NCBI GenBank assembly: GCA_030549335.1
Contig: CM060193.1
Coordinates: 59,921,146-59,985,145, forward strand
Origin: Pontederia crassipes
Taxonomy: Eukaryota; Streptophyta; Magnoliopsida; Commelinales; Pontederiaceae
Reading direction: 5' to 3'
DNA: 64,000 nucleotides
The translations under genes and the position numbers were made by a program. The notes below the pieces were generated by a model that was not told the origin of the DNA, searched no databases, and was given only the letters and a program-made list of their open reading frames with translations. Positions 23,186 through 53,783 of the stretch are shown piece by piece. The number at the start of each line of letters is the position of its first letter. Within the stretch, counting starts at the first letter, position 1.

Positions 23186-25410
23186 GGAGAATAAAGATGT
23201 TTTATTTTCTATTTTTAATTTCTTTGCATGAGGTCAATACTCAATAGACATCTCAAAAAAAGAATTACTGACGTGCTGCTATGGATACGCGTGGTGCACT
23301 CATATTCCCCTCCACAGTCCCTTCCAATCTCAACTCATCTCCCCAAGGCAACAAGAATTTGAAGAACAAGAAATTAAGCAAATGGACAAGGACGAGCTCC
23401 TGCGGATCGCCGAAAGGAGGCTGGGGGATCAAAACAAGTACGAAATGCTGCTCACGCTCATGGCTCTCCGCAAGGACGGGGCCATAGGGGACGAAGACGC
23501 CGCCAACTGGGCGCATGGGCATATATTCGTCGGACTGCCGGAGCTTTCAGCAGGTTTCGATATCCTCATGCTGCCCCAACGGCACTGGCTGCAGACGCCG
23601 GACATCCGTACGGCCCACTACATCCTCCACAATATGGAGGAACACTTCAGGGAGCACATCGACCTTTTCCGGTGGATGCTTGTTACCCTATGTACGACAG
23701 AGGAAAGGACCTCCGCCGTGGACGGCGCTGACATTAACAGCCTCGTCAAGATTTTCTGCGTGCTTTCCCGGGTCTATCACTTGCCTATGCACCTATATGA
23801 CTGAACTCCGCGCGCCGGCCATATGCATGGAGCCGGCCGGACGGTCGACAGGTAAGTAATTTATTAGCCTTCGTCTCCTTACTTACGTAGATCACTTGTG
23901 CACGCGTGCAGGGATTATGTCATTTGTGATCATTCTTGTTGACGTTTAGGTACTGCGATTGTGCATGTCATGAACACACGTTGGCAAGTTTAATCTGTAT
24001 AGTGATCGTCAAGTTTCTGAAATGCAATATGTCGATCTCTGGCTAATATGTTCAACTTTCTTTCTGTGGTCTTTGTGTGTTAGAACCTTAGAAGAACTAC
24101 TTCCACTACCCGCTCTCACAAGAACTTATAAGCGATGCGTGTTTCCTTTTTCTGAGTAACAGTAGTTTAAAGGATCAGAGTCAGACGAATCATTTTCTTT
24201 TCTGATTACACAAATGATAGATCTTTTTTCTGGGTACTAAAATGATATATTTAATATAAGTTGTTTCTGTTTGTGGTTTCTCTTAGGTGGTGGATCCGAC
24301 AGCAAGACTTGAATCTGTTTGTCTCAGCCTCTCAGGCGACGAAGATGATGTCGGGCGATGATAATGCTTCTTTGATGATACGCTTTCTGCAAGATTTGTT
24401 TTCAGCTGATGCGATCAATCTGTTGAAACTACTGGTAGTGATCAAATTGTTCCTGAGACTTTGTCTTCTGCAATAATTTTAGATAAACATGCATGTTGGT
24501 GAAACTATTGATAAGATCAATTTTGTGTTCTGCAAGATTTATGTTTGACCGACGTAAATTTTACGTGCAAGATTTATTTCCCTGCCCTCAATTACTGTCT
24601 GACTGTGTTTCTTGAGAGAAACAATCTGAAACAAAATAAAATAGTTCTATTATCAATAAAAATCCTCAATAAACAAAGCATAAAATTACATATTAGAGAA
24701 CACAATGAAGAAAATGGCTGAGACTCCTGGTAGATGTCTGAAATTCATGGTCGAGAATGTTCCACCTGTATACAAATTAATTAAAAAAGTTTTGAACTTG
24801 GAGATCAGGCCTTCCCATCTGTATATCATTTCCTGTCATTTGTTCAATTCCAGCGATAGATTCACATCATTTGGTTGTATTGAGGGGAGGAGTGTGTGTG
24901 TGAGAGAGAGAGAGAGCGAGTGAGCGAGTGATTGACCTTAGAGATCTTTCTCTCTCCAACTGCAACTTGGCACCATACGCTACTCAGTACCCAGGGGAAT
25001 TCTGAGTTGAATCGACAAACATAAGCAGCTTTGTCCAGTATTAAATGCAGAATTAATCTTCTGATCTCAGCATTGGAGAAGCGAATACTAATGGGCGTTG
25101 AGATCAGGCCAGAATTCTGAACTAAGTTAGGAGATATTTCCAAATCGAATTTTAGCTATATTAGATTCTCAAAGGTCCAGAATTAGATCACACCAATTAG
25201 AGCTATATATATAAACTTTATTTTATAGTTGCAACCTGTAAGAAGCTTATTGAAAACAGATCTTGTGACACCCCAAATGCACAACTTTGTGATCTGCATA
25301 GGACTGTAGATTGGATATCATGTGGCATCTTATTTGGGTGTCACGTGTCACTACATAAATGGACCACATAAGTAGGGGATTATATGATGAAATGTAGTTT
25401 CCTTTTATAT
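23186..25410 (+). repeat. Duplicated PAH-gene unit, copy 1
   Basis: From AGAATAAAGATGTTTTATTT onward this region matches 49164-51079 through promoter, coding region, 3' intron and 3' flank. Copy 1 has about 280 extra bases at 24662-24950, where copy 2 is continuous. It retains the uninterrupted TTTCCTTTTATAT sequence at which copy 2 has a Mutator-like insertion. Confidence 0.9.
23382..23804 (+). CDS. Small single-PAH-domain (SIN3-like) protein, copy 1
   Basis: A 140-residue protein. Residues 1-70 form a paired amphipathic helix domain: an LLRIAERRLGDQNKYEMLL helix, then the hallmark FVGLPELSAGFDILMLP, which corresponds to the GHPELIxGFNxFLP block of SIN3 proteins. PAH domains bind short helices of transcription factors. 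Full SIN3 proteins carry three or four PAHs and a histone-deacetylase interaction region, all missing here. Residues 75-140 are conserved with the two paralogues in this window but unknown to me. The start follows AAGCAA, and the matching ATG exists in copy 2. A donor GTAAGT at 23852 and acceptor CTCTTAG ending at 24286 suggest an intron in the 3' UTR, conserved in copy 2. The TATA box seen in copies 2 and 3 is eroded here, so expression may be low. Nuclear location is inferred from the family. Confidence 0.8.
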   Translation: MDKDELLRIAERRLGDQNKYEMLLTLMALRKDGAIGDEDAANWAHGHIFVGLPELSAGFDILMLPQRHWLQTPDIRTAHYILHNMEEHFREHIDLFRWMLVTLCTTEERTSAVDGADINSLVKIFCVLSRVYHLPMHLYD

Positions 25411-25485
25411 TTTCCCTTTCTAAGGTTACCTAAATAAAACATAAAGTAAGTTATAAACCACGTAATAATAAAAATATAAAAATCA

Positions 25486-26099
25486 AGAAAAAATACACAA
25501 AATATCTTTCGACTTTGACATTTTATCAGCGTTATCCTCCAACTTTATTTTATAATTTGTGTATCCTTCATCTTTTAACTTATTTTACCAACTATCCTTT
25601 TGAATTTTGATAGACGATTTTCCGGTGATTTTGTTATCGTGTCGTCATGCAACGATTTTTCTCCCCATCATGTAAGGAGAGCGTCCCCCCCTCCCCCATT
25701 CTTCTCCGAGGGGGAGGGGGCCCCTCCCCTCTCTCTTCTATAGCCTCAGAGAAGAGAGGGATTGGGGCGTCCGCCCCTTACCAGTGAGGATGCCTATTCG
25801 AAGAGAGGAGGGGTGGCGCCCCCTTTTTTATTTTTTAATTTAATTTTATATTTATTTTTCTTTTAATAATTTGTTGATGTGGACGACAGCATGTGTGGCG
25901 GTGCCACGTCGGATGGTTGCTTGCGTGGCGGAGAGAACATTGCCATGTCAATTGGGTAATCGAAAAATGTGTGATAAGCAGTGAAAAGGGCATTCCATAA
26001 AATGAGTTAAAAGATGAATGACAGTCTAATTGCAAAGTAAAGTTGGAGGATAACGCTGAAAAACAGCCAAAGTTGGAGGGTATTTAGAATAATTTATCC
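25486..26099. mobile_element. Mutator-like non-autonomous element with long terminal inverted repeats
   Basis: The ends share about 105 bases of inverted similarity, including the block CAGCGTTATCCTCCAACTTT. Perfect 10-base flanks ATAAAAATCA occur at 25476-25485 and 26100-26109, matching the 9-11 bp target duplication of Mutator elements. The core (25670-25830) is very rich in G and C runs. No transposase is encoded. Confidence 0.85.
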
Positions 26100-26109
26100 A
26101 TAAAAATCA

Positions 26110-26518
26110 TATTTAATATTGTTTTGTGATATTATTGTTTATTTGCATATTGAATAAATTATAGATAATTCACTGTTTATTATTATATCATATTATTACT
26201 GATAGTAACATAGTTATGTTCTAATTATTAATTATACTTATTACAATGTTTTAAAGTTTATGAGTATATTATTGTCATTATTTTTATATTTATCCTATGT
26301 TTATTATTTATTTATAATATATTTATCTAATAATTTACTCTTATGAATTTACAATTTGAGTTTAATTATGAGGTGTATAACGGGAAGGAATCGTAGCAAG
26401 AAAAAAAAAGAAGTATTGACACGCCATCTTGATCGATCCGCTTCTACAACATCTTCCCAACGCAACTGGAAAACACAGACACACACACATACACACATAT
26501 ATATTATTTTCTTTAATT
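26110..26518. other. AT-rich DNA with a short block shared with the PAH3 flank
   Basis: About 57 bases at 26416-26475 match 52563-52620 at roughly 88% by eye. A CA repeat lies at about 26479-26505. No gene is recognised. Confidence 0.6.
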
Positions 26519-27135
26519 ACACTTACGGACGATCCATAAGTACTCATGGAACGGCCGACCGCACCCCAGCCGGTCAACTGCTACTCACAGGACGGACATC
26601 CGACTTACTTTCTGTCCACTTGATTCTCCCTTTCTCGTATAACAATTCATAATGATATGTAGTCACCTTGCCCCCTAAATCCTTGATTGATCTTGTGATC
26701 AAAAGGTATGTTCATAGATAATGATAAAAGATGGGAGGTAATCAACTTTGTGTGAGGTACTCCCGGAAAGGTTATCAGCCTTGTGCGAGCCACTCCACTT
26801 ACAAATGTTACTGCCTTGTGCGAGGTCATTCTCCCCTTATGAGGCATTTATCATGGCACTGATTCCCACTAGCCCACTATGATATAGGTAGCTACACAGT
26901 TGTGTGTTAGTGGAGAACTCTTTCAACACATAAATAAGATGAATTGAAATGAATGATTAAAAATGAATAGAAGGACTATATCAACATGAAATAAAATGAA
27001 AAGAAATGGACCCATGATTATCCAATTTATTCTTATATATATGTTTAATATGTTTGCTACATGCTTATTTTGATGGATCGACCCATTATGAATTCACACT
27101 TAACTTTATGCTAACGGTTGATCTTGCTTTTCTGT
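26519..27135 (+). mobile_element. Gypsy LTR fragment (fossil)
   Basis: Similar to the right-hand third of the solo LTR at 20686-22588 (compare the stretch after 21487). It shares the CTTGTGCGAG repeats and the final TTTATGCTAA segment. It is cut off on the right by the start of CACTA element D. Confidence 0.75.
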
Positions 27136-28410
27136 TACAACAAGAAAATTGCATTTTTCCTTTGGGAATTTCCGACGGCTGCATATCTCTCGCAAGTTCC
27201 GACGTATTTTTCTACGGTTCTTGCTATCCGATGGAAGTTGAGACATAATTCTTTCCCACGGTTTGAACCGTCACAAGTACCCATGGTTGCCTTACTGTCG
27301 CAAGTTCCCACGGCTAAAGCCGTGGAAAACATAAAATAAATTTTTTACATTCGGCTGAAATAAATATCTTACAAGATTTAATAAAAATATACATTAATTT
27401 TACAGTCGTGGGAAATGACTCAACGTATTTCCCATGGTTGAGGTCGTGGAAATTCAAAAAAAAAATAGAATATGACGAAGAAAGTGTCATTGGGAAATAT
27501 ATTTTAAAAAGTTTCCTACGGCTGCAAGTCCTCCTATATATAACCCAAGCCCCTACTCCCGATTGTTTCCTTCCCTCTTCGCCCGATCAGTCGACTCCAA
27601 CAGATCCCCTCATTTCTTCCGGTGCTCACCCTTCGGCTAGCTGCTGCTGCTCACATCGTGATCGGTGCCACTGCCATTTCCTCGTCCATCATTCCCCTTC
27701 AAATGAATCAAGCTCCGGCAGCAAGCTTCGATGATCCGCTCCGACTCTAGCATACGCCTCAGAGGACGCTCTGGTGATTCGCTCGAAGGTACGCCTGCGC
27801 CTTGTCATGTTCTGCTTTTGTCCTCCCCCTTTAAACCTCGGCTTCGACGCCCGGTGGATCCAACACTTGGCGGCGGATCTCCCACGGCTCTGCGAGGCTG
27901 GCTGGCCTTGTTGCGGCCCTCTCCCATCACTGCAAGGTTGGTCGGCCTTGCTGCGGCCCTTGCTCGTCGCTGCGTGGCTGGTCGGGCCCGCTGCAGACCT
28001 CGCCAGACGTAGCGATCGGGGCACGCATGGATCCGACCGTTGGCAATCGGAACCGGCCATGCACAACTGGATTGGGGCGTGAACAGTCGGATCCGAGCAT
28101 AAACGGCCCGGATTCGGCCGTTCATGCCCAGTTCCGGCCGTGCGCGCCAGGATTCCTGGATCCGTTGACATTTCGGATTCGGGCATTGTGTCCAAAATCG
28201 GACATTCACGTTCGAATCCATGCCGCGCGCCATCTCCGAATGGCCCGAGTTCATATTGCAATTAATATAAACTTATTTTTCCATATAGGCATCTTCGCAA
28301 GTTCATATTCTATGTTCATGGTTCCATCTTAATTTAATTGATCATTTTTACTCATTGTTACACTAATGTATTAACATTTAACAATTTTTATTTCATATAG
28401 AACTAATATA

Positions 28411-28570
28411 AAATGTATCATCCGGAACATCGTCGATGGATCTATAATAGAACAAATCCAGGTCGTTTAAGGTTGACACAAAAATTCATAGATGGTGTTG
28501 AATACTACACGACAATAGCTTGTCAGACTATATAATTTCAATAAGAAGGAACTATAAGATGTCCATGTTT
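28411..28570 (+). pseudogene. TNP2 transposase N-terminal exon remnant (element D)
   Basis: Read on the + strand it gives a RRWIYNR ... LTQKFIDGVEYYTT sequence, then CPC. This is the transposase-associated N-terminal domain and closely parallels the TNP2 start of element B at 44624-44863. The frame is interrupted and no further transposase sequence follows before element A begins. Confidence 0.7.
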
Positions 28571-28819
28571 AATTTCCTTTTTCTAATTGAAAATTGATGC
28601 ACTAAAATAGAATTTATTTTAATTTTCTTTTTAATTTCCAACTGATGGATTTTATTCTTTATTTTTATTTTTGAATTCTTTTTCTAATAAAAAATAGAAT
28701 TTCCCACGGCTGAAACTGTAGGAAACTTTCCCACGGCTTCCCACGACTCCAGCCGCAGGAAACTTTCCCACGGCTAGAAATTTCATTCTTGCGTCCATCT
28801 GCCGCCTGACAATGCTATA

Positions 28820-29035
28820 TCTATATCGGTCTTCGTCCCACCCGACGCTCTCTCCCTCGCGTGGCTCTCTCCCTCCTGACGCTCTCTCCCTCGTGGCGCT
28901 CCCTCTGGCGACATTCTCTCCCTCCAGCGGTGCACTCTTCCTCTAGCGACAATCTCTCCCTACGGTGCCGACTCCTTCTCCCGTTCCCTCCCGCCCCTCC
29001 CATTCCCTCTCTCGTCCCTCCTGGCCGACCTCGCT
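28820..29035. repeat. CTCTCTCCCTC minisatellite-like repeat
   Basis: Several irregular copies of a GACGCTCTCTCCCTCG-type unit sit in pyrimidine-rich DNA just outside the left end of element A. Confidence 0.6.
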
Positions 29036-29949
29036 AGTGTTGCAATACAAGAAATTAGTCAATTAGAGACACATATATTGACTCTAATGCATCACTAATT
29101 TATCGCTGAACAATGTAGCGTCGAATTAGCGTCGCCTACGCGTCACAGTCATGGTGACGCCAAAGGTCCGATGCTATTTGCGTCGCCATTAACTTTTCGG
29201 CGCTGGAGTGCTCGACGCTAATGTGACGCCGAGTTGATGCTAATATGACATTGTTTTGAGGCTAGTATGACGCTAAAATAATGCTTAAGTTTATCATCAT
29301 CATTGGCAAGTGGCTCTATCTAGATGCCAGCGCGACGCTAAATGGCGACACAGTTTTGCGACGCTAAGTGGACATTAATAGGGTGCTAAATGTACGACGC
29401 TAATGTGATGCTAAGGAGACACGGACTACAACATCTTCATCATTTGTACAATTTAATTTATATTTCACATTTCTTTACACAAGTTTAACTATGATACTCG
29501 ATCATGTTACACAATATAAATTAAGTTTACATATACATACCAAATTACACATTCTAATCACATTACAAATAATATATTACATGATCAACCGTACCGGCGC
29601 CGCCACCGAGTTCATCCGTGGCATCAAGAAATGGATCATTCTCGTACAGTGCTTGCCGCTTCATCAAGGAGGCAGACTGTGGTAGCGAACGACGTTAGGG
29701 AGGCAATCGGCGGCAGCGGACATGTCCATGGATGGTGTTAGGGAGGCAATCAGCAGCAGCGGATGAGTCCACAGACGGCGTCGGGGAAGCAAGTGACGGC
29801 AGCGGACGATTCCGTCGACGACTTCGAGGAGGCAGGCGGCAGCGGCAGATGCATTGGTGATCACCACTTATTATGCTCATAATTATTATAGTTAAACCCA
29901 CGGAATTAAATAAAATTTGATCATATTTAAACACTTTTCAATCATTATT

Positions 29950-30960
29950 AGGAGAAAATTTGAATGAGTAAAAGGGAGGACTAACTACTTTTCAAACTTT
30001 GAATTCTGAATAGGAAGGAAACAAAAAGAGGGAGAAGAACCCAAAACGAAGGGAGAAGGAGAAGGAGAGGAGAGGAGAAGAAGAAAGCTGAAGAAAAAGG
30101 AAGATCGATGCAGTCAAGATTCAGGATGAACTAAAAAGGATTTTTGGTTCCCTTGTGATGATACTTTGTTGATGTTACTCTTTTGACTCTATGATGCCGT
30201 GCATCTGACTCCTCGTTTCTATTTACTTGATGCATTGCAGTCTTATTATTTATGTTTAGTCTCAATTAGATCGAGAGATCGATTGTTTCTTCTTTAACTA
30301 GTTTCGTCTGAGAGGAGAAATTGGTTACATTACTTGTTGTGCTTCTAGTGATTATTGATTTAATATTCATATATAGATCGTTAGATCTACCATAATAATT
30401 GTTGCGAGGTGAGAGCCTTCGACAGTTGCGAGAGGTGTCAAATGTATTTTGATTGCTCTGATTAGGATAAAAGAATGAGTTGCCGAAGATCGAGAGATCT
30501 TGCTCTTCTTCTGATTAAGGATGAGAATATGAGTAATTCTAATCTACTAATTAATGGCTACTCTCCTTTCGGTTCAAAGAGAGGTCGGCGAATCGGGAGG
30601 CAGAGTAATTAATTCGTGCCCTAAGGTCCAAAGATCGTTTAACCAGATAAGTCGAAATTAAAAGGCAATATCGTCAACGGTTTCATTAGAGGGGAATCTC
30701 TTCCATACATTTTAATTTTTTCTCATTCTCTTTTGTTATTCTTCATCCAAATTTCGTTTCTTTATTATCTAATTTACTCTTAATTGTTTTGTGACAATCC
30801 TTGGGATTTAATCAGATTAGTAATTGGTCTAAATCAACGGGGTTACGACACTCAGGGTTTCTACTCAACCTGTGCACTTGCAGCTGCGTGAACTCTAGAT
30901 TAAAATTTAAACACGACTAGAATTACTTTTAGTGCGAGAATTCCAAAATCCACATATACA
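29950..30960. mobile_element. Possible Gypsy LTR-derived fragment inside element A
   Basis: This non-coding stretch differs in character from the CACTA repeats. It shares the 17-base block CCTGTGCACTTGCAGCT with the Athila-like LTR at 62581. This suggests an old LTR piece; ends are not defined. Confidence 0.25.
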
Positions 30961-36960: not shown

Positions 36961-37083
36961 CCAAGTAATCATGACTGAAAAAAAGAACGAAACTTCTCTT
37001 ATTATCGGTAACCATATATAACTTAAAAATAAAGTAAAAAGCTTATGTCATTAGAATAACTACGGGATTCATTCGCTTGTTTC

Positions 37084-40019
37084 GTATTCTAATTCATTTT
37101 CATCATCTTCATCATCGTCACTATAATCTTGGTTCGAGTCATCGTCAACGAAATTATCAAAATTCACTTTCAAGAGGTCATTTGAATTGAACTCTTCCAT
37201 TGGCTTAGCGTCATCGACCAATTAAAAATTCTCAACTCCATCGACTACATCAATCTTCTCATTCACTCTATCTTCTTGATAGTATTCATCCATGGGCACA
37301 TCGTTGTATACGGATGATGCTTCATTATTATCTACCATTATTTCTTCTAAGAATAGTCTACTCCTCACCTTGCATGATGCCCACCATTCATCCTTGGTTC
37401 TTTTCAATGGATACTTAGTGTAGTACACTTGTTGCACTTGTTCTGCCAATACGAATGGATCGTATGACTAAAGTCTTGACCGACAGTGAGATCTCTGTCA
37501 TTCAAGATAACTTTATGTCCTGTACTAAGAAGTCGACATGAGTACTTGAAGATGGATAGAATATTCATGTCAACTTCTCTTTCACCACCATCATTGTTTC
37601 TTGGAACTTGGGTGTGTTGTGATTGTATGTGTGGCTCAAAGTATTTTGAAGTGAAGTTTGACACCTCCTCAATGAAATATGCTTCACATATGGAGCCTTC
37701 AATTTTTGCCTTATTCTTTGCCTTCCTTTTCGAATATAACATGCACCTTTCGAAAGGATACATCCATCGATACTAAATCGAACCCGCAATTTTTGTTTCA
37801 TATGGTAGATGTACAATCAAATGTTCCAACTCATCAAAGAAAGAAGGTGAAAATATCTTCTCAGCCTTGTACATGGTAATCACAATAAAAGCCTCTAACC
37901 GAGAGATGTCTTCTTTTCGAACGATGGATGCACAAAGCTCTTTAAAGAACATAGACAATTCTGTTAGAACCTTCCAGATGGCCTTTGGCAAAAGTTCTTT
38001 AAAGGCAATTGGAAGCAGTCTTTGCATAAAAATATGACAGTCATGACTCTTCATCCCATGTATCTTCTCATTGTCCAAGTTAAAACAACGAGATATGTTT
38101 GATACATATCCGTCGGGGAATTTCAATTGCTTTACCCATTCGAAAATCACTTTTCTTTGATCATTGCTCAAGGTATAAGTAACTTTTGACTTTTTTGCAT
38201 TTTAAGTTGAATGATATCTAACTATGGTCTTTTGCATATTAATTTCATGTCTTCGCGAGCCTGTATCCTATCTTTTGTTCTTCTTTTAACATCCATAATA
38301 GTGTTGAAGATGTTGTCAAATACGTTCTTCTCCACATGCATGACGTCCAGGTTATGACGTACCAGTTTGAAGACCAATAAGGCAACTCCCAAAAAATACT
38401 TCTTTTCTCCCAATTATGTTCACTTCCAAACCCAATTTGCTTATAACTACCGGCCTTCAGTCCGAATGACACTTCACTAAGCTTGTTTACTTGCTCTAGC
38501 AATTCTTTTCCCGTCAAATGAGTTGGAGATAAAGTGTTCTCGGATGTATTCTTTTTAAATGAGTTTCGATCACGACGCATCGAAATCTCCAATGGCAAAA
38601 ACATCCTATGACAATCAAACTAGCAAACTTTCCTATAATTTTTCAAATAAAATGATTTCATATTCTTTTTACATATGGGACAAGCAAGTTTACCTTTTGT
38701 GCTCCAACCACTCAACATTTCATATGCCAAAAAATCCATATTAATGCGGCTCTCATAATGAAATTTTACTTTTTAGATTTATCATAGATAATCACGCCAT
38801 CCTCCCACAATATCTTGTGTACATCAATCAAAGGTCTTAAGTAAACATCTAAACTTTTACCAGGAGATCGAGGACTCGGGATCATACAGGTAAGCCATAT
38901 ATTCTTTCGTCTCATACACATGCTCGGAGGCAAATTATAAGGTGTCACAAAAAATTGGCCAACATGAATAAGCAAAACTTGATGAGCCAAATGGATTGAA
39001 GCCATCGGTGCAAAGTCCTAATCTAACATTGCGTGATTCTGCAGAAAAAGCCGGATGAAATGTATCAAATCGTCTCCATGCCTCCGCATCCGAAGGATGT
39101 GTAATTGAATTTTGATCCCCACGTGCCCCTTCTCTGTGCCACTTTTTAAATGATGCAGTTTTTTCAGAAAGAAATAGACGTAGTCTTGGAACAATCAGAA
39201 AGTATCTAAATATTGCATTTGTCACATTTTTTTCGTACTTTGGAAATTCTTTTTCGACTTGAATTTAGGCTCACCACAAATATAACAACTCATAAGTGAG
39301 TTATTTTCCTTGTAGTACAACATGCAATGATTGCGGCATACATCAATCTTCTGATATTCCAACCCTAAATCTCTCATCAACCGTTTGCACTTGTAAAAAT
39401 GTCCCGGTAATTTCTCTGAAGTTGGAAGCATACTCTTAATAATGGCAAGCATCTGGTCAAAACAACTTTCACTCATATTAAATTTTAATTTTAAGTTCAT
39501 TAGTTGTGCCACTGTAGAAAGTGTAGTTTGCTTCACGCATCTATCGCATAAAGGTTCATCTGCTTCGAGAAGATTATAAAACTTAGAAGCTGAAGGATTC
39601 AGATCTTCTTCAATCAATGTTTCGCCAACATTTTCTCCTAACATTGCATCTCGTATCATGTCCATGTACGGATTGCTCGAGTCGCCCACAACAGTATCTA
39701 CATCCGTTATTTCTTTAGCCCATCTTTTTTCGCCATGAAAGATCCAATTTGTGTATGTCAGTAAGAAACCGTTGTAATATAAATTCTTCTGCACATCATA
39801 TCTTACTTTCCACTGATAACATTTGCACTTCCGGCATGGATACAAGATTTCACCATATGAAGAAGCAACACCTTCATTTTGATATGCCACATTAATGAAT
39901 TCATTAACACCATCCTTATATTCTTCAGTTATTACGCCATGTTTATCCTTCCAACAACGAATCCAACTACGATCTGGCTTAATCATTTTTGTAACGGACA
40001 ACATTAAGCCATATGTCAA
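37084..40019 (-). pseudogene. TNP2 transposase (element C), probably broken
   Basis: In order along the - strand are the N-terminal associated domain (RSWIRCWKDKHG, CRKCKCYQW), the Transposase_21 core (KIDVCRNHCMLYY, HPSDAEAWRRFD, VRLGLCTDGFNPFG, YSCWPIF), the HNLDVMHVEKNVFDNI block, DUF4218 (LKFPDGYVSNISRCF, KSHDCHIFMQRLLP), and DUF4216 with an acidic tail. TNP2 is the catalytic transposase that cuts at the CACTA ends. The sequence moves between frames at several points. Some shifts may be introns and others look like decay (for example within 38222-38604, where two frames both carry family sequence). All domains are represented, so the length is near that of an intact TNP2. Confidence 0.85.
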
Positions 40020-40389
40020 TAAATTCGTGTACTTGAAACATGTGATTTTGAACTTACGAAGTCCAAAATCACATGTTTCAAGTACTTCATCGTCGAATCA
40101 TAATATCATTTCATCACCAAGAGGTTCTAGTAATTAAGTAGTATTTTATCACCAAGAGGTTCTATGTCAATAGTAACTAAAGTAATAGCAATAGTTTCTC
40201 GTAATTAAGTAGTATAACTTAACATGCATTAGTAACTAACTTAACAACAATAGTTTCAAGTGATTAAGTGGTATTTAACTGAACATGCATTAATAATTAA
40301 CTTAGCAACAATAGTTCCAAGTAATTAAGTAGTATTTAACTTCCATGCATTAGTAATTAACTTAACATGGTGGCGGGCTAGTACCTTCT

Positions 40390-41060
40390 TAACCGGAGAG
40401 AGATGACGGCGGACGGCGGGCAGGGGTGGAGGAAGGTGGCGGGCGATGGCCGACAGAGGAGCGCGGTGGAGGCGGCGGTGGAGGTGGAGAGCGACCGAAG
40501 CGGAGGTCGGCACAGTGGAGGAGGGCGGTGGAGGCGGAGGGCGGTGGTGGAGGCGGAGGGCGGCGGTGGAGGCGGAGGGCGGTTGAGGCGGAGGGCGGCG
40601 GAGGCGGAGATTGGCGTGGTGGAGGAGGCCGGTGGAGGCGGAGGGTGGCGGAGACGGAGGTCCGTGCGGAGGGCGGTGGAGGAGGCGGAGGCGGCGGTGG
40701 AGGGCGGCGGAGGCGCGCGGAGGAGGAGGCGATGGAAGGCCGGCGGAGGAGGAGGAGGTGGAGGAGGCGTTGTGCGGTGGAGGAGGCGGACATCGGTGGT
40801 GGAGGAGGCGGAGAGCGGTGGAGGAGGCGGAGAGCGATGGAGGAGGCGAAGGCGGCGGTGGAGGGTGGCGGAGGCGCGCGGAGGAGGAGGGCGGAGGAGG
40901 AGGAGGAGGAGGAGGAGGCGGTGGAAGGCCGATGGAGGAGGAAGAGGCGGAGGAGGTAGACGTCGGCGCGGTGGAGGAGACGGCGGAGGTCGGCGCAGGG
41001 CAGTAGAGGAGGCGAAGATGACGGAGGCAAAGGCGGTGGAGGAGTCGATCGTCGGTGTCT
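40390..41060. repeat. GGAGGCGG-type purine-rich repeat (element C)
   Basis: About 670 bases are almost entirely built from GGAGG, GGCGG and GAGGCGG units on the + strand. It lies just upstream of the C TNP2 start (which reads leftward). Long Gly/Arg and Pro/Ser frames across it are products of composition. Confidence 0.9.
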
Positions 41061-41299
41061 AGCGTCGGGCGTCGTCGGGCGTCATCGGGCGTCGAACAGA
41101 GGGGTAAATAGTAAACAGTGAAAACGAAGAAGAGGGGTTAGGGATTTAAGTAAATTCTTTAGCGTCTCATTCTTCAGTGTTGCTACGTAGACGCTATATA
41201 GGCGCCCTATTGTGTCGCTAACCCTATAGCGACATAATAGCATCGCATTAGCGTCTACTAAGACCTGGCGTCTCAACATTGTGACGCCGGAGAGACACT

Positions 41300-41490: not shown

Positions 41491-41538
<48 letters not shown>

Positions 41539-42741: not shown

Positions 42742-44863
42742 AGGATGCCACGACAGACCTTTCTTCCGGAACTTCATCATTCCGATGAACTCTAGTCCTC
42801 GCACACTTAACATGAGAATCAAAGTAGTAGGAACAAAAGTACAAAACCTCTTGAATCATATAGGCTCAACATATGGATCATTCGACACGTGATTTGTTCT
42901 TAACCGTCCTTTTAATTCGATTAAGATATCTTTCAAAAAGATACATCCACCTATATTGTCAGATTCGATGCATAACCATCCAGCATTTCTTAGCTCTTGG
43001 ATCCATCGACACACTTGAGTCTTCTACTCTTTGGTGAGAGCATAACTTGCCTTTGGCTTAGATAATCTACCGTTAGGTAAACCAATTAAGTGCAACTCTG
43101 TGCCGTCGACAATACTCCTTCAAATCTAGTCTCGCCTTGAGGTTGTCCTTTGTTTTACCCTTAATGTCCATTACAGTATTGAATACATTTTCAAACACAT
43201 TTTTTTTCAATGTGCATGATATCCAAATTGTGACGTATCAAACAATCCTTCCAATAAGGTAAATCTCAGAATATACATCGTTTAATCCAATTATGAGAAA
43301 CACCATACTCATTGTATGTGACATTTGGATCATCGACAATTCTACATAGAGTATTGACAATGTGAAATAATTGAGGTCCTGAGCGTCTGACCGGAGCCAT
43401 GTCGTGCACAACTCTATTCCATCGAAAGGCATTTCGATTATTTCTGTACAGATGATCTGCTCTAAGAAATTGTCTATGACAATCAAATCAGTTATTTTTA
43501 TCCCATTTCTCAAAGTGAATTCATCTGAGTGTTTCATGCAATATGGACAAGCTAGTTTTCCTATCTTCCAACCAGATAACATCTCATACGCAGGAAAATC
43601 ATTAATTGTCCACAATAAGGCAGCTTTCAAGTTAAAGTTTTATTTCATCGACACATCAAAAGCGACGACACTATCCTACGGTTCTTTTAATTCGTCAATT
43701 AGATACTGTAAATATACGTCTATCTTCTGTTTAGGACTGTCATGACCAAATAAGACATGTAAAAAACATATAAGGTGCGGATATAGAAATTCCAAGAGGC
43801 AAATTATATGGTGTTACGATGATCGGCCAACATGAATAAGGAATTGAAGTCTGATCGTACGGTGTAAAACTATCCGCGCATATTCCGAGCCTTATGTTCC
43901 TTTCGTCACTAGCAAAATCTGGATGCATATGATCAAAATGTTTTCATGCTTTACCATTCGATGGGTGAAGCATGACACCTTCAGAAGTATTATGTTGTGC
44001 ATGCCACTTCATTTGCGACGCTGACCCTAGAGACGAGTATAGTCTTTTAAGTCTTGGAATAAGAGGCAAATAATGCATTCTCTTCGCAGCTACTTGAGTC
44101 TTGTTAGTCACTCTATATCGTTCGGTCCATAAAATTTGCATTCATTTAGATTGATGTCATCACTATAATATAACGTACAACCATTACGACAACAATCTAT
44201 TTTAATTGAGCCGAGACCAAGTTTAGAAATAAGTCTTTTTGTCCTATAAAAATTTTCAAGAATGCGAGCCCCAGTTGATGTGACCTCTTTTAAAATATCT
44301 AAAAATGCATCAAAACATGCTTGTGAAATATTGTGATATGCTTTCAGATTCAACATTCTAACAACAAGTGATAATTCCGAATGACTTTCACACCCAGGCC
44401 ATAAGGGCTGGCTCGAAGCATTTAGCAACTCAAAAAAATCTGTTGCTTTTGGATTTGGTGTCTCTTCATCTTGTTGAAATCCTATATTCCCATACTCAGT
44501 TGCAACTGCGTCATAAACTAGTTGTTCGTATTGCGAAGTAAATCCTTCATGAGGATCGACAAAATAGGGAACTTGATTTGGTACGCTTGTTGAAGGTTCT
44601 CCTTCACCTAAATCATGCCATTGCTAATAATTTGGTTTGAAATCCTTTCTATACAAGTGAACCTTAACTGTCTCTATCGTTTGCAACTTTGTGCTAAGAT
44701 ATTTCAAACAAGAGCACCTAATTGTTCCTTCCCGTTGAAATTGCAAAGATTGACAACCCACAGTAGTATAATAATCAACGCCATCTATGAATTGTTGTGT
44801 CAAACCTCTACGACTAGGATTATTTCTATTGTATATCCATCGACGATCATTCAAGTATGACAA
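42742..44863 (-). pseudogene. TNP2 transposase N-terminal and core part (element B)
   Basis: Pieces on the - strand are the N-terminal domain at 44624-44863 (DRRWIYNRNNPSRRGL), core pieces at 44108-44428 (IKIDCCRNGCTLYY), 43740-43928 (VRLGICADSFTPY) and 43238-43630 (WTINDFPAYEMLSGW), and a DUF4218-like tail up to the edge of element C. The frame changes repeatedly, so it is a relic. Its missing C-terminal part lies at 33.0-33.99 kb. Confidence 0.8.
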
Positions 44864-44935
44864 TTTCTATATTATTTACATATTACACTAATTAATTTAC
44901 CCTAAATTTTGTAATAAAAGACATATCAGAATCTT

Positions 44936-45519: not shown

Positions 45520-46045
45520 ATTGGCCGCCATCCAGACAAGTCATCTGTCTGGCCCGTTCGGATATGTCCGGCACAGCCGGATCTGGCCACGGCGGCCGGA
45601 CCTGATTTGGCCGCGGCGGCCGGCCAGATCGGGCCGCGGTGGCTGGACCTGATCTGGCCACGACAGGCGGATCCGCGCACGGCCAGATCTGGCCACGACG
45701 GGCACATCTGACCATCGCGCGCGACCGGATCTGGCCGCCGCGGCGTGGGCAAGGGCCGGCGGAGGAGAACGCCGGAATGAATGACGGTTTGGGCAAGGGC
45801 AGAGGGGAGCGGCCGGAGGATGGGGGGAATGACGTACCTGCGCCGGAGACGAACGTTTGCAAAGGCAGCGGGCAGGTCGAGCAGGCGGCGCACGGCAGGT
45901 CACGAGCACAGGCCGGCGGCGGCGGGTCTCATAGGCGGCGACAGAGCGCGGATGCCGGAGATCAGGAGGGAGGTGACCGCCGGAGGCTAGGCACGCGCGC
46001 AAGAGATCGGGCCGGATCGAAGGGAGGGAAACCGAAATAGTGACA
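45520..46045. promoter_or_regulatory. GC-rich island upstream of TNP2 (element B)
   Basis: It is rich in CpG and in GATCTGGCC-type repeats and lies between the CGACGG subterminal repeats and the TNP2 start, the expected place for the element promoter and leader. Long frames on both strands are probably non-coding. Promoter function is inference. Confidence 0.45.
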
Positions 46046-46794
46046 GAGGGGTCGCATATTTATATTGTCAATTTTCGACGGTCAAAACCATCGAAATGTA
46101 GGTAAAAAATATAAAATATTAATTCAAATTCAGACGACCCAAACTGTCAAAACTTTCGACGGTTCTTCAAACAGTCGAAACTTTCGACGGTTCTAACCGT
46201 CGCATAATCTAATATTATATATGAAGTGAAATAGAAATATAAATTATATATATTTCGTTTCGATGGTCAAAACCGTCGAATTTTTCTAAACTATATATAA
46301 AATGAGTTCAAATTCCAACGGTTCTAATCGTCGAAAGTTTCGATGGTTCCTCGAACCCTCGCAACTTTCGACGGTCCAAACCGTCGAAATTAAAAATATA
46401 GATAAACTATTAAGTGTTGTTAACGTTAACATTTTTCGACGGGTAAGGCCGCTGAAAGTTTCGATGGATACAAGAACCGTCGAAACTTTCGACGGTCAGA
46501 GCCGTCGAAAGCCCACATGGAAAACTAATCACCCAGATTTACTATTTTCGACGGTCATGAGCATAAATTTTTTTGACATATATTGCGACCAATTTTAAAC
46601 CGTCATAAGTTTAGATGGCCGGAACTGTCGAAAACTTCTCCGACGATAATTACAACAGATATTTCAATCCGTCGAAAAATCCATCTGTACTCAGACGAAT
46701 TTCAGCCCGTCAAAAAAGAACCGTCGAAAATCATGCTTTTTCTTGTAGTGGCGCCAAACTTTAAGTTATTTATTAACTATAAATTGATTATGTA

Positions 46795-46860
46795 TATATG
46801 CATGTATATTTATATGTATATGCATGTATATGTATATATGTACAAATGTGTATGTATATG

Positions 46861-46893
<33 letters not shown>

Positions 46894-46925
46894 GTATGTA
46901 TATGTATATATGCATATGTATGTGT
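46795..46925. repeat. TATGTATATG microsatellite
   Basis: Irregular TATG/TATA repeats directly right of element B, inside element A. Confidence 0.9.
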
Positions 46926-47683
46926 AAGTTTGGATACAAAAAAATTCTAACAAAATTAGTATTTCTCAAAAAAAAAAATTAAAAACTCTATGTCAACTAA
47001 ACGGGACCATTCAATTCTGAGCGCTTCCGAAAGGTCTGATTTTTGAGAATGCACACTTTTGAGGTTTTTTATAATTAAAAAAATAGGTATTTTGATCATT
47101 GGAGGAAACATGAAACACATGAAACTTTGAAACGCCTATTTTTTCATGGCAATCCGAGCTAGGACTATGGAGAAATGACCGTTTCTATTTCGAAACTTTG
47201 CCCATTTTATTGAATTTCTTTCGACCTCTGATCACAGCGATTCTTGTGCGACTGGAATTTTCCCCGATTCCCTTTGGACTCATGTCGACGATCGTCAAAA
47301 ATCTTTTTTTCCCTAGGTTTTTAAATTCCGTCCAGCCTCCTAAAATCATCAAAAATACTAAAAAATCTTTCCTGAAGTTATCTATGGGACGTACAAATTT
47401 TACGATGATCCGACGGTCTGATCTCCGGCAAATGAAGAAGCACTATTACTCCAATTTTGAAATTTGGAAATTAGAGTATAATATATGTATAGCATGGTAT
47501 ATTAATTTTTTGTATATTATATAATAGAATAATATAGTATAGTAAGGTATATAATATAATATAATTTATAGTATAACATAGTATAGTATTATATATTATA
47601 GTAGTATAGTATTCGATAATATACTATACAATATATAACATATATTGCCAAAAGAGCATAAACTAGCATCTACTTAACGTCGC

Positions 47684-48640
47684 AATCCTCCGACGCTAAT
47701 ACAACGTCACATGTGTCGACGTCAATACAATGCAAGACGTCAACGCTAATATCGCCTCTCATTTTAGCGTCCAATTACCGTCGCCATGGTGACGTTAAAT
47801 AAGCGTCGCAAGCTTGCGACGCCAATATAGCGCTACCATCTGCTACGTGTTTTCTAGTTTTCACGTGTGATAATAATGTCTCGGTGGCACCTCATTTAGC
47901 TTCGACATCATTTGACGCTAATGTGACACTAAATTGACGCTATAGAGAGGTATTTAGCGTCTATTTTTGTCGACCCAATGGAAACTCTATTGTGACGCTA
48001 TTAGTGTCTACTTAGCATCACGTTGTGCGGCGATGCTAATGCGCATCGGAATTCGATATTTTTCTTGTAGTGTCCCGACAGTCGGATCAGTCCTCCCACG
48101 ACTGAAACTAGCCATCCGGCAGCCGATCCGGCTGCCAGCGGCCGGATCGGCATGCAGGCCGCCAGATCTGGCGTCGCAATCCTCCGACGCTAATACAACA
48201 TCATATGTGTCGACGTCAATACAACGCAAGACGTCAACGCTAATATTGCCTCTCATTTTAGCGTCTAATTAGCGTCGTCATGGTGACGTTAAATAAGCGT
48301 CGCAAGCTTGCGACGCCAATATAGCGCTACCATCTGCTGCATGTTTTCTAGTTTTCACGTGTGATAATAGCGCCTCGGTGGCACCTCATTTAGCGTCGAC
48401 ATCATTTGACGCTAATGTGATGCTAAATTGACGCTATAGAGAGGCATTTAGCGTCTATTTTTGTCGACCCAATGGAAACTCTATTGTGACGCTATTAGTG
48501 TCTACTTAGCATCACGTTGTGCGGCGATGCTAATGCACGTCGGAATTCGATATTTTCTTGTAGTGCCCCGACAGTTGGATCAGTCCTCCCGCGACCGAAA
48601 CTAGCCGTCCGACGGCCGATCCGACTGTCAGATCTGGCCT
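47684..48640. repeat. Direct tandem duplication of the right end of element A
   Basis: About 490 bases (47684-48171) are repeated immediately at 48172-48640 with only a few percent difference. The unit covers the subterminal repeats, the CACTA terminus (ending 48072 or 48565) and about 95 bases of flanking D sequence (CCCGACAG...GATCTGG). Confidence 0.88.
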
Positions 48641-49060
48641 CCCAGGTTTGAATTGGTCGCTCGACGTCCGATCTGCCTGCAGGCAGCCGAATCTATCACG
48701 GGCAGCCGAAATTTGCAGCCCGACGCCTGGATTTGGCCTCCCGTGGTCGGAACTAGCCTCCCGACGATCTGCAGGGGCACCATCTGGTCACCCGACGGTA
48801 GATCTGGTTGTGGGAGGCCGGATCTGGCCGTCCGGTTGCCAATCCGACTGCGGACGGTCGGATTTGGCCTCTCGCAATTGAACTGGTCGCCGATCTAGCA
48901 GTGGGCGACGAGATGTGGCCTCCCGCAGGCGGATTTGACATAAGGCGGCAAGATGTGGCCTCCAGCAGTCAAATCTGACCTCCCATATCTGGTTGCGGGA
49001 CGGGTGGCATTTTTTTTTAATAATACAAATAAGATTTACGACGAATTATAGCCATGAGTT
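48641..49060. repeat. GATCTGG-rich GC island (right part of element D)
   Basis: Repeated GGATCTGGCC(T/G)CCC and GTCGGAT units over about 400 bases. No convincing coding frame. Confidence 0.6.
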
Positions 49061-49232
49061 TTTTCCACGACTTCGGCCATGGAAACGTTGCCACGGCTCT
49101 AACCCGTTGGAACGGCCCAAGCCGTGGGAATGTTCCCTCGACTGAAACCATGGAAAATTTATTTTCAGAGAATAAAGATGTTTTATTTTCTGTTTTTAAT
49201 TTCTTTGGATAAAAGAATTACTGACGTACTGT

Positions 49233-49241
49233 TATATATAC
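49233..49241 (+). promoter_or_regulatory. TATA box of PAH copy 2
   Basis: TTATATATAC lies about 95 bases before the start codon and just after a TGACGT motif. The third PAH gene has the same TATATATACGC-type sequence; copy 1 has TATGGATACGC at this position. Confidence 0.6.
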
Positions 49242-49331
49242 GCGTGCACTCATATTCCCCTCCCCAGTCCCTTCCAATCTCAACTCATCTCCCCAAGGAA
49301 ACAAGAATCAGAAGAACAAGAAATTAAGCAA

Positions 49332-49763
49332 ATGGATCATCGGAACGAGGACGAGTTCCTGCGGATCGCCGAAAGGAGGCTGGGGGATCAAAACAAGTAC
49401 GAGATGCTGCTCACGCTCATGGATCTCCGCAAGAAAGGGGCCATAGGGGACGAAGACGCCTCCAACTGGGCGCACGGGCATATATTCGTCGGGCTGCCGG
49501 AGCTTTCAGCAGGTTTCGATATCCTCATGCTGCCCCAACGGCACTGGCTGCCGACGCCGGACATCCGTAGGGCCCACTACATCCTCCACAATATGGAGGA
49601 ACACTTCAGGGAGCACGGAGACCTGTTTAGGTGGATGCTTGTTACCCTATGTACGACAGAGGAAAGGACCTCTGCCGTGGACGGCGCTGACATTGACATC
49701 CTCGTCAAGATTTTCTGCGTGCTTTCCCGGGTCTATCACTTGCCCATGCACCAATATGACTGA
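49332..49763 (+). CDS. Small single-PAH-domain (SIN3-like) protein, copy 2
   Basis: A 143-residue protein that differs from copy 1 by about ten replacements and three extra residues near the start (HRNE region). The PAH domain (residues 6-73) has the same FVGLPELSAGFDILMLP hallmark. The C-terminal half carries LCTTEERTSAVDGAD and VLSRVYHLPM, shared with copy 1. A donor GTAAGT at 49797 and acceptor TTAG ending at 50230 define a conserved 3' UTR intron. The intact TATA box makes this the better candidate of the pair for expression. As in the family, a nuclear role in binding transcription-factor helices is expected, but no deacetylase-binding region is present. By-eye counts give roughly as many replacement codons as silent ones, which suggests relaxed or changed constraint since duplication. 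Confidence 0.82.
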   Translation: MDHRNEDEFLRIAERRLGDQNKYEMLLTLMDLRKKGAIGDEDASNWAHGHIFVGLPELSAGFDILMLPQRHWLPTPDIRRAHYILHNMEEHFREHGDLFRWMLVTLCTTEERTSAVDGADIDILVKIFCVLSRVYHLPMHQYD

Positions 49764-51079
49764 ACTCCGCGCGCCGGCCAGCCGGCCGGTCGACCGGTAA
49801 GTAATTTATTAGCCTTCGTCTCCTTACTTCGTAGATCTCTTGTGCACGCGTGCAGGGATTATGTCATTTGTGACCATTCTTGTTGACGTTTAGGTACTGT
49901 GATTGTGCATGTCATGAACACACGTTGGCAAGTTTAATCTATATAGTGATCGTCAAGTTTTTGAAATGGAATATGTCGATCTCTGGCTAATATGTTCAAC
50001 TTTCTTTCTGTGGTCTTTGTGTGTTAGAACCTTAGAAGAACTACTTCCACTACCCGCTCTCACAAGAACTTATAAGCGATGCGTGTTTCCTTTTTCCGAG
50101 TAACAGTAGTTTAAAGGATCAGAGTCGGACGAATCATTTTCTTTTTCTGATTACACAAATGATAGATCTTTTTCTGGGTAGTAAAATGATATATTTAACA
50201 TAAGTAATTTCTGTTTGTGGTTTCTCTTAGGTGGTGGATCCGACAGCAAGACTTGAATCTGTTTGTCTCATCTTCTCAGGTGACGCAGATGATCTCGGGC
50301 GATGATAATGCTTCTTTGATGATAATGCTTTCTGCAAGATTTGTTTTCAGCTGATGCGATCAATCTGTTGAAACTACTGGTAGTGATCAAATTGTTCCTG
50401 AGACTTTGTCTTCTGCAAGAATTTTAGATAAACATGTTGGTGAAACTGTTGATAAGATCAATTTTGTGTTCTGCAAGATTTATGGTTGACCGACGGAAAT
50501 TTTACATGCAAGATTTATTTCCCTGCCCTCAGTTACTGCCTGACTGTGTTTCTTGCTAGAAACAATCTGAAACAAAATAAAATAGTTCTATTATCAATAC
50601 AAATCTTCCTCTCCAACTGCAACTTGGCACCAGATGCTACCCAGTACCCAGGGGAATTCTGAGTTGAATCGACAAACATAAGCAGCTTTGTCCAGAATTA
50701 AATGCAGAATTAATCTTCTGATCTCAGCATTGGAGAAGAGAATACTAATAAGCGTTGAGTTCAGACAAGAATTCTGAACTAAGTTAGGAGATATTTCCAA
50801 GTCGAATTTTAGCTATATTAGATTCTCAAATGTCCAGAATTAGATCATACCAATTAGAGCTATATATATAAACCTTATTTTATAGTTGCAACCTGTTAGA
50901 AGCTTACTGAAAAGTGAAAACAGATCTTTCGACACCCCAAAGTGCACAACTTTGTGATTTCCATAAGACTGTAGATTGGATATTCATGTAGCATCTTATT
51001 TGGGTGTCACGTGTCACCACATATATGGACCACATAAGCAGGGGACGATATGATAACGGTAGTTTCAAACTTCCTTTTC

Positions 51080-52122
51080 GGTAAACTGAATATACTGCAT
51101 CGTATTTTGCTGTGTACAGACTGCAACAACATCCAGTCGTTCACTAAAAAGTGATGGCTACGATTATTTTTTATACTTGTTTTTATCCAAAAGCCAGTTG
51201 TCTTCTTCGTGACACGGCCGTAAATTGCTCAAACGAAAGAAAATGTGGTCCTCATGTCGTACCTCCATGGCGAGGCATCTTGCGCACTGAGACATCAAGG
51301 ACCCGATAGGTGCAAAAGTGCATGCTCATTGGAATGGCGACCAGAGGACCACAATGGCAGGCGTCGTGGATGATTCCACATCGGCAGCAAATTGCTCACC
51401 AGAGCCGTAGCAAGCCAGGCAGATGTCATCCCAAGAGCATGTTGGACTCATCGAAGGAAAGCCAACGTCGACACATTCTTTTTTGCTCTTTGGGGTTCAT
51501 CCCCAAACGTGAGAGGGTAATCAGCAGGACTCATTGTAAAGCCAATTGGGTGAAAGAGGGAGTCTAGTGGCAGTGAGCTTGGGCTGACGACGATCTTGCA
51601 AAGATGACAATTCTTAGGAGGTGAGCTTGGGAACCACGACAACTATGGAGGTGAATTTTTTTTTATCATCGATATATGAGAAGTAGTGTCGACTGTCCAA
51701 TTCATGTGACACTATTGAGCACATTGTCTATAGGTTGAAAAGTTGGTTCATCATCAAATTCAACTAATTTAATATGATCGTCTCGATTGCGTGTCTGATA
51801 GTGATAAATGAAACTCTTAATAAAAAAATTTTACATTAAAAAAAACTTGAGCAGTGGCACAAAAGCACGGAACCTTTACACGATGAGAAAGCTTTGGGCA
51901 GCGGCGAATGGAAATAGGAGTTGGTAGAAGAAGGAAGAGATGTGTGTCATGTCAAGTTATTTTTTGGGTACATGTGTTAGGTTCTTTTGGTTATGGGCAA
52001 GCATCTGTCCTTTATTCCTGACATCATTAAAAACTAATCTCAACCATCCATATTTAATGAATGGATAAGATGTTATTGCAGTTTGTACACTGCATAATGA
52101 TATGCAGTATATTCAGTCTTCT
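51080..52122. mobile_element. Mutator-like non-autonomous element with cargo
   Basis: Inverted ends of about 90 bases (left ACTGAATATACTGCAT; its complement at the right near 52100-52117) are flanked by TTCCTTTTC (51071-51079) and TTCCTTTTT (52123-52131), an 8-of-9 target duplication. The paralogous unit at 25398-25410 shows the uninterrupted site. Between the ends lie about 800 bases of ordinary base composition without a recognised transposase or gene, so it may carry captured host sequence. Confidence 0.83.
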
Positions 52123-52131
52123 TTCCTTTTT

Positions 52132-52896
52132 ATATTTTTCCTTTTATATTCTTGCAAATACTCTAATTCTCTATTAACTTTTACAGGTGAAATATTCTCA
52201 AATAATTCATCTACAAATTAGTCAGTGTTTATTATTCGAACTTTTTATCCAGTAATTTCCCCGTAAATATTTATGAGCAAATATTGCGAATAAACTTTGT
52301 AACCTCAGCAAATATTTCGGGCATCGCCCAACAATTAATCTGCATACATGCCTCAACAATATACGTCATGGAATTAAAATATCTGTTGATAAAATCTTGC
52401 ATAAAGCAAATCGCCATCAACAATTCATTTCTGCAACACTTTGTAACCTCAGCAAAAAGTAACTAAGCAAGAAAATTTACAAGCAGCGTATCATGCACAT
52501 AAAGGTGTGTCGGTCTAGCTTCTTGCAAGCCATCATCATCCATGCAACTGCTAAAAACAGGCAGCACGCCATCTCGATCGATCCGCTTCTGCAGCATCTT
52601 CCCAACGCAACTGGGAAACACATCAAAATATATAAAACACTTTTTAATTACCACATATTTTAACAGTGGACTAATTAACGAATTAACAGGCAAAACTAAC
52701 ATATGCACAGAGAACAAAACACATACATAGTCTAATGGTGATTAGAAAAATATATATTCATATGTTATTAGAAAAATTCGAAGCCTTACATACTATATAT
52801 ATATAGTATGTATAGTGATATATTAGTGAAAGCCTTAACATATATAAATTTTAGAAAAATCCATCGACGCGCATAATTAAGCAGTGACTAATGTGC
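52132..52896. other. AT-rich intergenic DNA 3' of the third PAH gene
   Basis: A 57-base block at 52563-52620 is shared with 26416-26475. On the - strand it sits in an open frame (KMLQKRIDRDG). It may belong to a later exon or 3' end of the third PAH gene, but no splice link is proven. Confidence 0.4.
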
Positions 52897-53349
52897 GTGT
52901 TCTTGACATGTACAGACGCCACACGTAAAGACACACAAGAATTTAATGCATGTAAATATATACTGGTTTATTTCAAACATTTCATTAACTAAATAGTACT
53001 GAATCAGTGACTAATGAACGTTCAAGAGAGATCGTACAAATTAATTAACTCATGCATGGATGTAAAAATGAGACGGACACTTACACGAACCAGAGAGACT
53101 GTTGCATGCATGGCCAGGCGGTGTTCTTGACATGTACAGACGCCACACGTAAAGATATACAAGAATTTAATGCATGTACATATATACTGATTCATTTCAA
53201 ACATTTCATTAACTAAAGACTCGACCAGTGACTAATGAACATTCAAGAGAGATCGTGCAAATTAATTAACTCATGCATGCATGTAAAAATATGAGTCGGA
53301 CACTTACACGTACCAGAGACACTGTTGCATGCATGCATGGCCAGGCGGT
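52897..53349. repeat. 224-bp direct tandem duplication
   Basis: Unit 1 at 52897-53120 and unit 2 at 53121-53349 share GTGTTCTTGACATGTACAGA and the rest of the unit with few differences. It covers the 3' end of the third PAH gene, including a candidate splice donor on the - strand. Confidence 0.92.
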
Positions 53350-53351
53350 GT

Positions 53352-53783
53352 TCACCACTCTTGCATGGGGAAGTATAACATCCTGGAAATCACGCAGATG
53401 ATACTGACGACAACTGGGACGTCGACGCCGACGACCATGGTGGAGGCAGTCTCTTCTAACGAGCACAAGAGGGAAAGATACTCCAAGAAAACGTGGTTCC
53501 CGTCCTCCCCAAAGATGTCGTTCAACGTTTTGATCTGAAGGACGGCTGAATCGATCTCCGGCGTGTGCATCCAGTACTCTGAGGGGATGAGATGATTGAA
53601 CCCCGCTATTAGCTCCGGCCGCCCGTCCAGCAGTTCTAGCTGGTGCACGGCGCCGGCGAGCTCGTCGTCCCGCATCGTCTTCTCGCTCCAGTGGGCGATG
53701 TGATCCTCCAGCGCCTCGTACTTGGTTTCATCTAGTAGCTTGCTCCCTACGATCCTGAGGAATTCCTGAACCCTCGGCTTCAT
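53352..53783 (-). CDS. Small single-PAH-domain (SIN3-like) protein, copy 3 (diverged)
   Basis: A 143-residue protein starting at the ATG at 53783 (MKPRVQEFLRIVGSKLLD), which aligns with the starts of copies 1 and 2. The frame is open for a short way upstream but has no earlier ATG. The PAH domain has FLRIV, KYEAL and the hallmark LDGRPELIAGFNHLIP, which is closer to canonical SIN3 PAH sequence than copies 1 and 2. The C-terminal half is conserved: LCSLEETAST, VGVDVPVVVSIICVISR and FPM near the end. It lies opposite in orientation to copy 2, about 3.6 kb away. A donor-like GTACGTG follows about 40 bases after the stop, suggesting the same 3' UTR intron habit. Its promoter has an intact TATA box. 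Function is inferred from the fold only. Confidence 0.8.
   Translation of the reverse strand: MKPRVQEFLRIVGSKLLDETKYEALEDHIAHWSEKTMRDDELAGAVHQLELLDGRPELIAGFNHLIPSEYWMHTPEIDSAVLQIKTLNDIFGEDGNHVFLEYLSLLCSLEETASTMVVGVDVPVVVSIICVISRMLYFPMQEW

Follow-up and report, generated by a model that had tools for sequence, protein, structure and literature searches.

The window analysed here is a stretch of 64,000 nucleotides from Pontederia crassipes (contig C11, positions 59,921,146-59,985,145, in an assembly of 1.13 Gb and 43 contigs) and it contains three small open frames, here called mini-SIN3 genes, that resemble the PAH region of the corepressor SIN3. Judged by sequence, they form a single divergent clade within a large family whose members mostly have two PAHs and lie on C11, C12 and further chromosomes. 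Copy 1 (A_C11a) lies at 23382..23804 on the forward strand and encodes 140 residues, copy 2 (A_C11b) at 49332..49763 on the forward strand and copy 3 (B_C11) at 53352..53783 on the reverse strand, with 143 residues each, as an earlier preliminary description of this DNA had placed them. Copies 1 and 2 are duplicates that differ at 22 of 423 aligned coding bases and by one 9-bp gap, but "near-identical", the term used in that description, is generous for a protein identity of 91%. The copy it called diverged and inverted is indeed so, since copy 3 is on the opposite strand and shares 36% of its residues with copy 1; its homeolog at C12:10963819 is 91% identical in protein. The duplication includes the surroundings of the genes, where a block at 23182..25401 (forward strand, with an interruption of ~285 bp inside) pairs with 49163..51066 (forward strand) over ~1.9 kb at ~91.5% likeness (23182-24667 and 24952-25401 against 49163-50608 and 50609-51066).

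The PAH domain of the window proteins spans residues ~3-66. It was placed at 23388..23570 (+) in copy 1 by AlphaFold2 and profile-profile comparison (hhalign), at 49347..49529 (+) in copy 2 by alignment with copy 1, and at 53589..53777 (−) in copy 3 by profile comparison, the structure model of the last being of lower confidence. For copy 1, helices are predicted at residues 3-13, 17-31, 37-47 and 53-63, the fourth at lower confidence. Searches with single sequences were weak. The Pfam PAH profile PF02671 did not match any of the three proteins at E values up to 10, phmmer against PDB returned no SIN3 match for copy 2 and a weak match to Pst3 for copy 3 (E 0.7), and the viral contigs searched gave no match. 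With a five-sequence PAH profile in HMMER, copy 3 reached 12.2 bits (1 of 900 shuffles scored higher) and copies 1 and 2 were indistinguishable from shuffles. Profile-profile comparison was therefore needed, and here the N-terminal half of the window clade matched the N-terminal half of the PAH-containing paralogues at E 3.4e-14 and the Sin3 PAH profile at E 7.3e-7, a match that was reached in none of 300 column shuffles. Against a Pfam cut-off of 21.3 bits, the paralogues score 19.4 (C), 13.1 (D) and 32.6 bits (a relative on C6), with no match for B_C12. Profile comparison, paralogues and predicted fold together support the view that the window proteins are divergent PAH-domain members. An alternative in which the N-terminal half is another helical bundle, an alpha-alpha hub of the HHD or RST type, is hardly credible, as the profiles tie this half to PAH via two-PAH paralogues above the Pfam cut-off. 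Of the checks proposed in the preliminary description, the PF02671 search thus fails for all three proteins while succeeding for other members of the family, and structure prediction supports the PAH identity.

Consecutive contigs of the assembly act as homeologs (C3/C4, C5/C6, C9/C10 and C11/C12), from which we infer an allotetraploid genome. A Pfam PAH search of this genome gave 87 matches, comprising the exons of five canonical SIN3 genes (on C5, C6, C9, C10 and C13) and many small frames at 8.2-13.6 Mb of C12, at 57.3-62.1 Mb of C11 and on C3, C4 and C6; a further protein search gave 63 matches. Besides one SIN3 gene, 39 loci were read, 29 with one two-PAH open frame and 10 broken, partial or irregular. 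When ten earlier frames are added, the open small genes also number 39 (nine of the window clade and 30 other small PAH frames), so that the three copies first described are present but understate the family; these counts are lower bounds, and some places matched by Pfam, for example on C3 and C4, lie outside the set read. Over their full length the small frames can be aligned with the PAH1-PAH2 part of SIN3. In the C6 relative two Pfam PAH stretches are found, the second being the better, and this half matches SIN3 PAH2 chains in PDB at ~E 1e-7. The three-PAH layout of SIN3 was not found, as the window proteins have one recognisable PAH and 30 of the 39 open frames have two. Matches to the HDAC-interaction domain PF08295 number seven across the genome, in the five canonical SIN3 genes and once each on C3 and C4, and the genome-wide profile search gave none on the cluster chromosomes C11 and C12, in keeping with the earlier claim that the window proteins hold one PAH and no other SIN3 part. 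A TATA-like motif occurs in 26 of 39 upstream stretches, compared with 4.5 expected from mononucleotide shuffles, although the copies are related. In the window, TATA(A/T)A(A/T) is seen at 49233..49239 (+), 99 bases 5′ of the ATG of copy 2, and a similar motif at 53904..53910 (−), 127 bases 5′ of the ATG of copy 3; the upstream stretch of copy 1, scanned for the same motif, has none.

Some family members elsewhere have features of their own. Three near-identical two-PAH genes (L035, L036 and L037) are spaced ~29.5 kb apart at C12:9.047-9.107 Mb, a very recent duplication. On another homeologous pair, C4 and C3, the genes L054, L069 and L070 encode two PAHs and a further conserved extension (~180 residues), and L065 (C11:59.220 Mb) is a 445-residue open frame with several PAH units in series, partly degenerate. 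In the open-licence papers covered by a limited literature search, no account of small or expanded PAH arrays or of their selection was found.

Nine open frames of full length were read in the window clade; they fall into four lineages, A to D, each on both C11 and C12. Genome searches returned 12 places with copy 3 as query and 9 with copy 2, full-length frames and fragments taken together, and three fragments are broken pieces of the clade. The C-terminal halves (23595..23804, +, in copy 1; 49554..49763, +, in copy 2; 53352..53567, −, in copy 3) sit at the PAH2 position and have about PAH2 length. Their hhalign match has an E value of 0.0027 over 20 columns only, and its score is marginal (19.4 against 18.8 for the best of 150 shuffles). 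Copies 1 and 3 end in the conserved tails KIFCVLSRVYHLP and SIICVISRMLYFPMQEW, and C, V, R and P residues are invariant in the tail across the clade. In the N-half tree every clade around the window clade has two PAHs, a placement with modest support (0.74-0.89). Given this placement and the PAH2-like position of the C half, the likeliest history is that PAH2 was lost or remodelled; the clade would have kept a PAH1-type hub and exchanged PAH2 for a conserved hydrophobic tail. An origin of the tail by frameshift was also considered and rejected, as four tails, compared by tblastn with 39 family loci and the C9 SIN3 gene (40 loci), gave one match at chance level.

Do these fast-changing frames persist because they are used? 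Across four homeolog pairs, 7,024 aligned flank bases show 106 gap openings. The 1,716 coding bases show only one (6 bp), where 25.9 would be expected from the flanks (P 1.5e-10). This contrast may be overstated, since the AT-rich flanks could be more prone to gaps and only intact copies were chosen. Substitution rates in the same pairs are 0.060 in flanks and 0.045 in coding sequence, and no new stop codons are seen where 2.8 would be expected (P 0.06). Between copies 1 and 2 the ratio of nonsynonymous to synonymous substitution rates (dN/dS) is 0.36 (p 0.018). A codon model of the nine genes gives an omega of 0.75 (likelihood-ratio test (LRT) against 1, ~4.4) and places 41% of the sites near an omega of 0.25. 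The LRT of model M2a in this clade is 8.6 overall, 9.9 for the C half and 2.6 for the N half, which is suggestive of positive selection that we do not claim. A competing account holds that copies of SIN3 PAH1-PAH2 multiply and decay without function, the open ones being merely young. It draws on homeolog dN/dS values near 1 (0.72-0.83 in A, 1.05 in B, 1.01 in C and 0.73 in D; no pair differs from 1); on the many broken copies, with three window-clade fragments and 10 of the 39 loci outside the clade lacking a single regular two-PAH frame; and on the use of intact copies by choice, which biases the analyses towards open frames. The scarcity of coding gaps, the omega below 1 with its constrained sites, the invariant tail residues and the recurrent TATA-like motif argue against it, and we consider it improbable. 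These data support the reading that window-clade frames are kept by selection while amino acids in them are replaced at close to the silent rate. The suggestion in the preliminary description that selection has kept the frames is upheld in this sense, even though the dN/dS comparison it proposed came out near 1 between homeologs.

Selection was also modelled in 21 two-PAH genes of the array, using codon models M1a and M2a plus counting methods. Omega is 1.26 overall (M2a against M1a, LRT 58.3). The PAH1 half has an omega of 0.84 (M2a LRT 10.8, with a class at 1.69) and the PAH2 half an omega of 1.76 (LRT against 1, 13.9; M2a LRT 45.2), or 1.59 with an LRT of 31.3 when codon frequencies are set equal. 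In null simulations of the PAH2 half (40 under M1a and 40 neutral), run with tree and branch proportions fixed and with one M2a start against three for the observed fit, the LRT reached at most 17.6 and omega at most 1.52. Because simulated LRTs climb to 17.6, those of the PAH1 half and of the window clade are not decisive. Counting gives a weaker dN/dS for the PAH2 half, 1.08 over all 210 pairs, and model-free counts in ten recent pairs do not establish an omega above 1 (PAH2 half 1.12, N half 1.16); one of these, the C6 pair, is fast in the N half instead of the PAH2 half. In five C11-C12 pairs the counted value is 1.39 for the PAH2 half, and the PAH1 half gives 0.95 (210 pairs) and 0.74 (the five pairs), the halves differing at p 0.065. 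Across methods, PAH2-half dN/dS ranges from 1.1 to 1.8. The size of the PAH2 omega is thus uncertain, since counting gives weaker values than codon models, while the existence of a fast site class in this half is well supported by the sequence comparison. Within the family, L055 (C12:8.981 Mb) has dN/dS of 2.4-3.9 against L035, L036, L037, L048 and L068 (5-7 silent and 48-59 replacement changes), which could reflect either a burst of change or a mosaic origin.

PAH clefts bind single amphipathic helices, and a passage of PMC6295471 names five residues of Sin3A PAH2 that contact the SID ligand. When these are transferred to the array via the PDB sequence, a test limited to PAH2 positions, all five fall in the fast class (posteriors 0.99, 0.89, 0.97, 0.86 and 0.96). 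At a posterior of 0.8, passed by 22 of 74 sites, the enrichment has P 0.0016, or 0.013 inside helices 1-2. The test is weaker at a posterior of 0.95 (3 of 5, P 0.035), and when codon frequencies are set equal four of the five positions are in the class (P 0.017). Sliding the contact positions by 1 or 2 leaves 0-2 of 5 in the class, and sliding by 3 leaves 4 of 5. At one contact position, Leu332, a change to Met cuts Mad1 binding 7-fold according to a passage of PMC7948954, and the array residues there vary (L in 9, M in 6, V in 3, I in 2 and S in 1). That the selected sites sit on the ligand face, as far as these passages define it, is a further argument against functionless decay. Such cleft-centred selection in two-PAH relatives fits the idea of a competitor, or microProtein, whose binding is itself predicted.

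We give roughly even chances to the proposal that mini-SIN3 proteins are SIN3-like decoys or competitors with a diversifying ligand cleft. Small PAH proteins would fold as SID-binding hubs and engage the same amphipathic helices that SIN3 receives at its PAH1/PAH2. As they have no HDAC-interaction domain, they would hold these helices without bringing the deacetylase, and would therefore compete for the partners of SIN3 or serve as decoys for them. Since the cleft diversifies, the partner is presumably moving, and may be either a set of host repressors in gene conflict or proteins with which a pathogen imitates the ligands of SIN3. In the immune version, free small PAH proteins would bait pathogen effectors that resemble a SIN3 ligand, or would be guardees under NLR watch. 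Clustered copies and a selected ligand cleft resemble host-pathogen families, and what counts against this version is that binding of an effector to the PAHs of plant SIN3 is not known to us, with a limited literature search giving the same result. It is worth considering because PAH is known as an NLR-integrated domain: a list of the domains that NLR receptors of A. thaliana and Z. mays carry as fusions includes it, and the authors of that list take such domains as pathogen baits (passages of PMC4759884), and in WRKY19 a PAH adjoins a TIR-NB-LRR module (passage of PMC7948954). We nevertheless regard it as unlikely. A host-internal version, in which plant repressors are titrated off SIN3, either in reproductive tissue or where parental or selfish alleles are in conflict, draws on the same sequence evidence, on the fast turnover seen in broken copies alongside near-identical recent ones, and on the binding of the repressor VAL1 by PAH regions of Arabidopsis SNLs (passage of PMC9266683). 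A stable host ligand alone would not drive diversification of the cleft, and this version too has a rather low probability.

SIN3 PAH domains are usually regarded as conserved docking sites. More broadly, and at less than even odds, the competitor reading may extend to a lineage-wide arms race via the SIN3 cleft. In it, dozens of free PAH1-PAH2 modules that have no link to the deacetylase and diversify at the residues recognising SIN3-interaction helices would form variable traps, either for repressors or for mimics made by pathogens, and the window clade would have retained PAH1 while PAH2 became a conserved module of a new kind. A large family that retained only the docking part and altered it under selection would mean that a conflict around a corepressor has so far gone unrecognised. 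It would also offer a set of natural variants in PAH specificity and a direct way to ask whether PAH-only proteins block SIN3.

The neighbourhood of the three genes is rich in mobile elements, as first described, with pieces of gag, tnp2-type transposase and DUF4218 around and between the copies. Pieces of a tnp2-type DNA transposon (DUF4218, Transpos_assoc and Transposase_21) lie at 37773-38201, 39222-40097 and 43238-43639 on the reverse strand. Directly 3′ of copy 3 (52897-53335), a unit of ~223 bp occurs twice in direct orientation at 92-95% likeness. A low-complexity stretch at 40320-41140 has several frames open on both strands, with a GC skew of +0.36 over 40-42 kb. Elsewhere in the window, a leucine-rich repeat receptor kinase gene (3603-6260 and 7412-7897, forward strand) has its kinase domain split by ~1.15 kb, an intron or an insertion, and a snoR71 match (42.4 bits) at 63413-63519 on the reverse strand is antisense to a gag frame at 62744-63529; the snoR71 match marks the window as plant DNA.

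MicroProteins are single-domain competitors of multi-domain regulators. The mini-SIN3 proteins likewise retain one interaction part of a larger regulator and are predicted to act in a dominant-negative way; unlike microProteins, most members have two interaction domains, are clustered and evolve fast. Compared with SIN3 itself, they lack its exon structure: on C9 the SIN3 PAHs are spread over several exons, whereas mini-SIN3 genes are single open frames, mostly of 140-220 residues, in dozens of copies. SIN3 carries the HDAC-interaction domain, for which C11 and C12 gave no match, and canonical SIN3 is conserved between C9 and C10, unlike the fast-changing family: the two are 97.9% identical over 721 bases, introns counted, and comparison of the translations by eye shows the same PAH1-PAH2 residues in both. 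In layout the two are collinear, as seen from plant SIN3-LIKE (SNL) proteins such as SNL3, in which PAH1 spans residues 7-77 and PAH2 90-163 (passage of PMC9266683). Small PAH genes are also annotated in Arabidopsis, and AT1G23810, a "paired amphipathic helix repeat-containing" gene moved by transposition of a copy, is likened here by description only; arrays, a remodelled PAH2 and cleft-centred selection are mini-SIN3 traits that the AT1G23810 passage of PMC2869330 does not mention. A small PAH-only family with this combination of traits was not described in the limited literature searched. The closest parallel in immunity, the integrated domains or decoys of NLRs, includes PAH-NLR fusions from two plant families (passage of PMC4759884), whereas the mini-SIN3 proteins are free.

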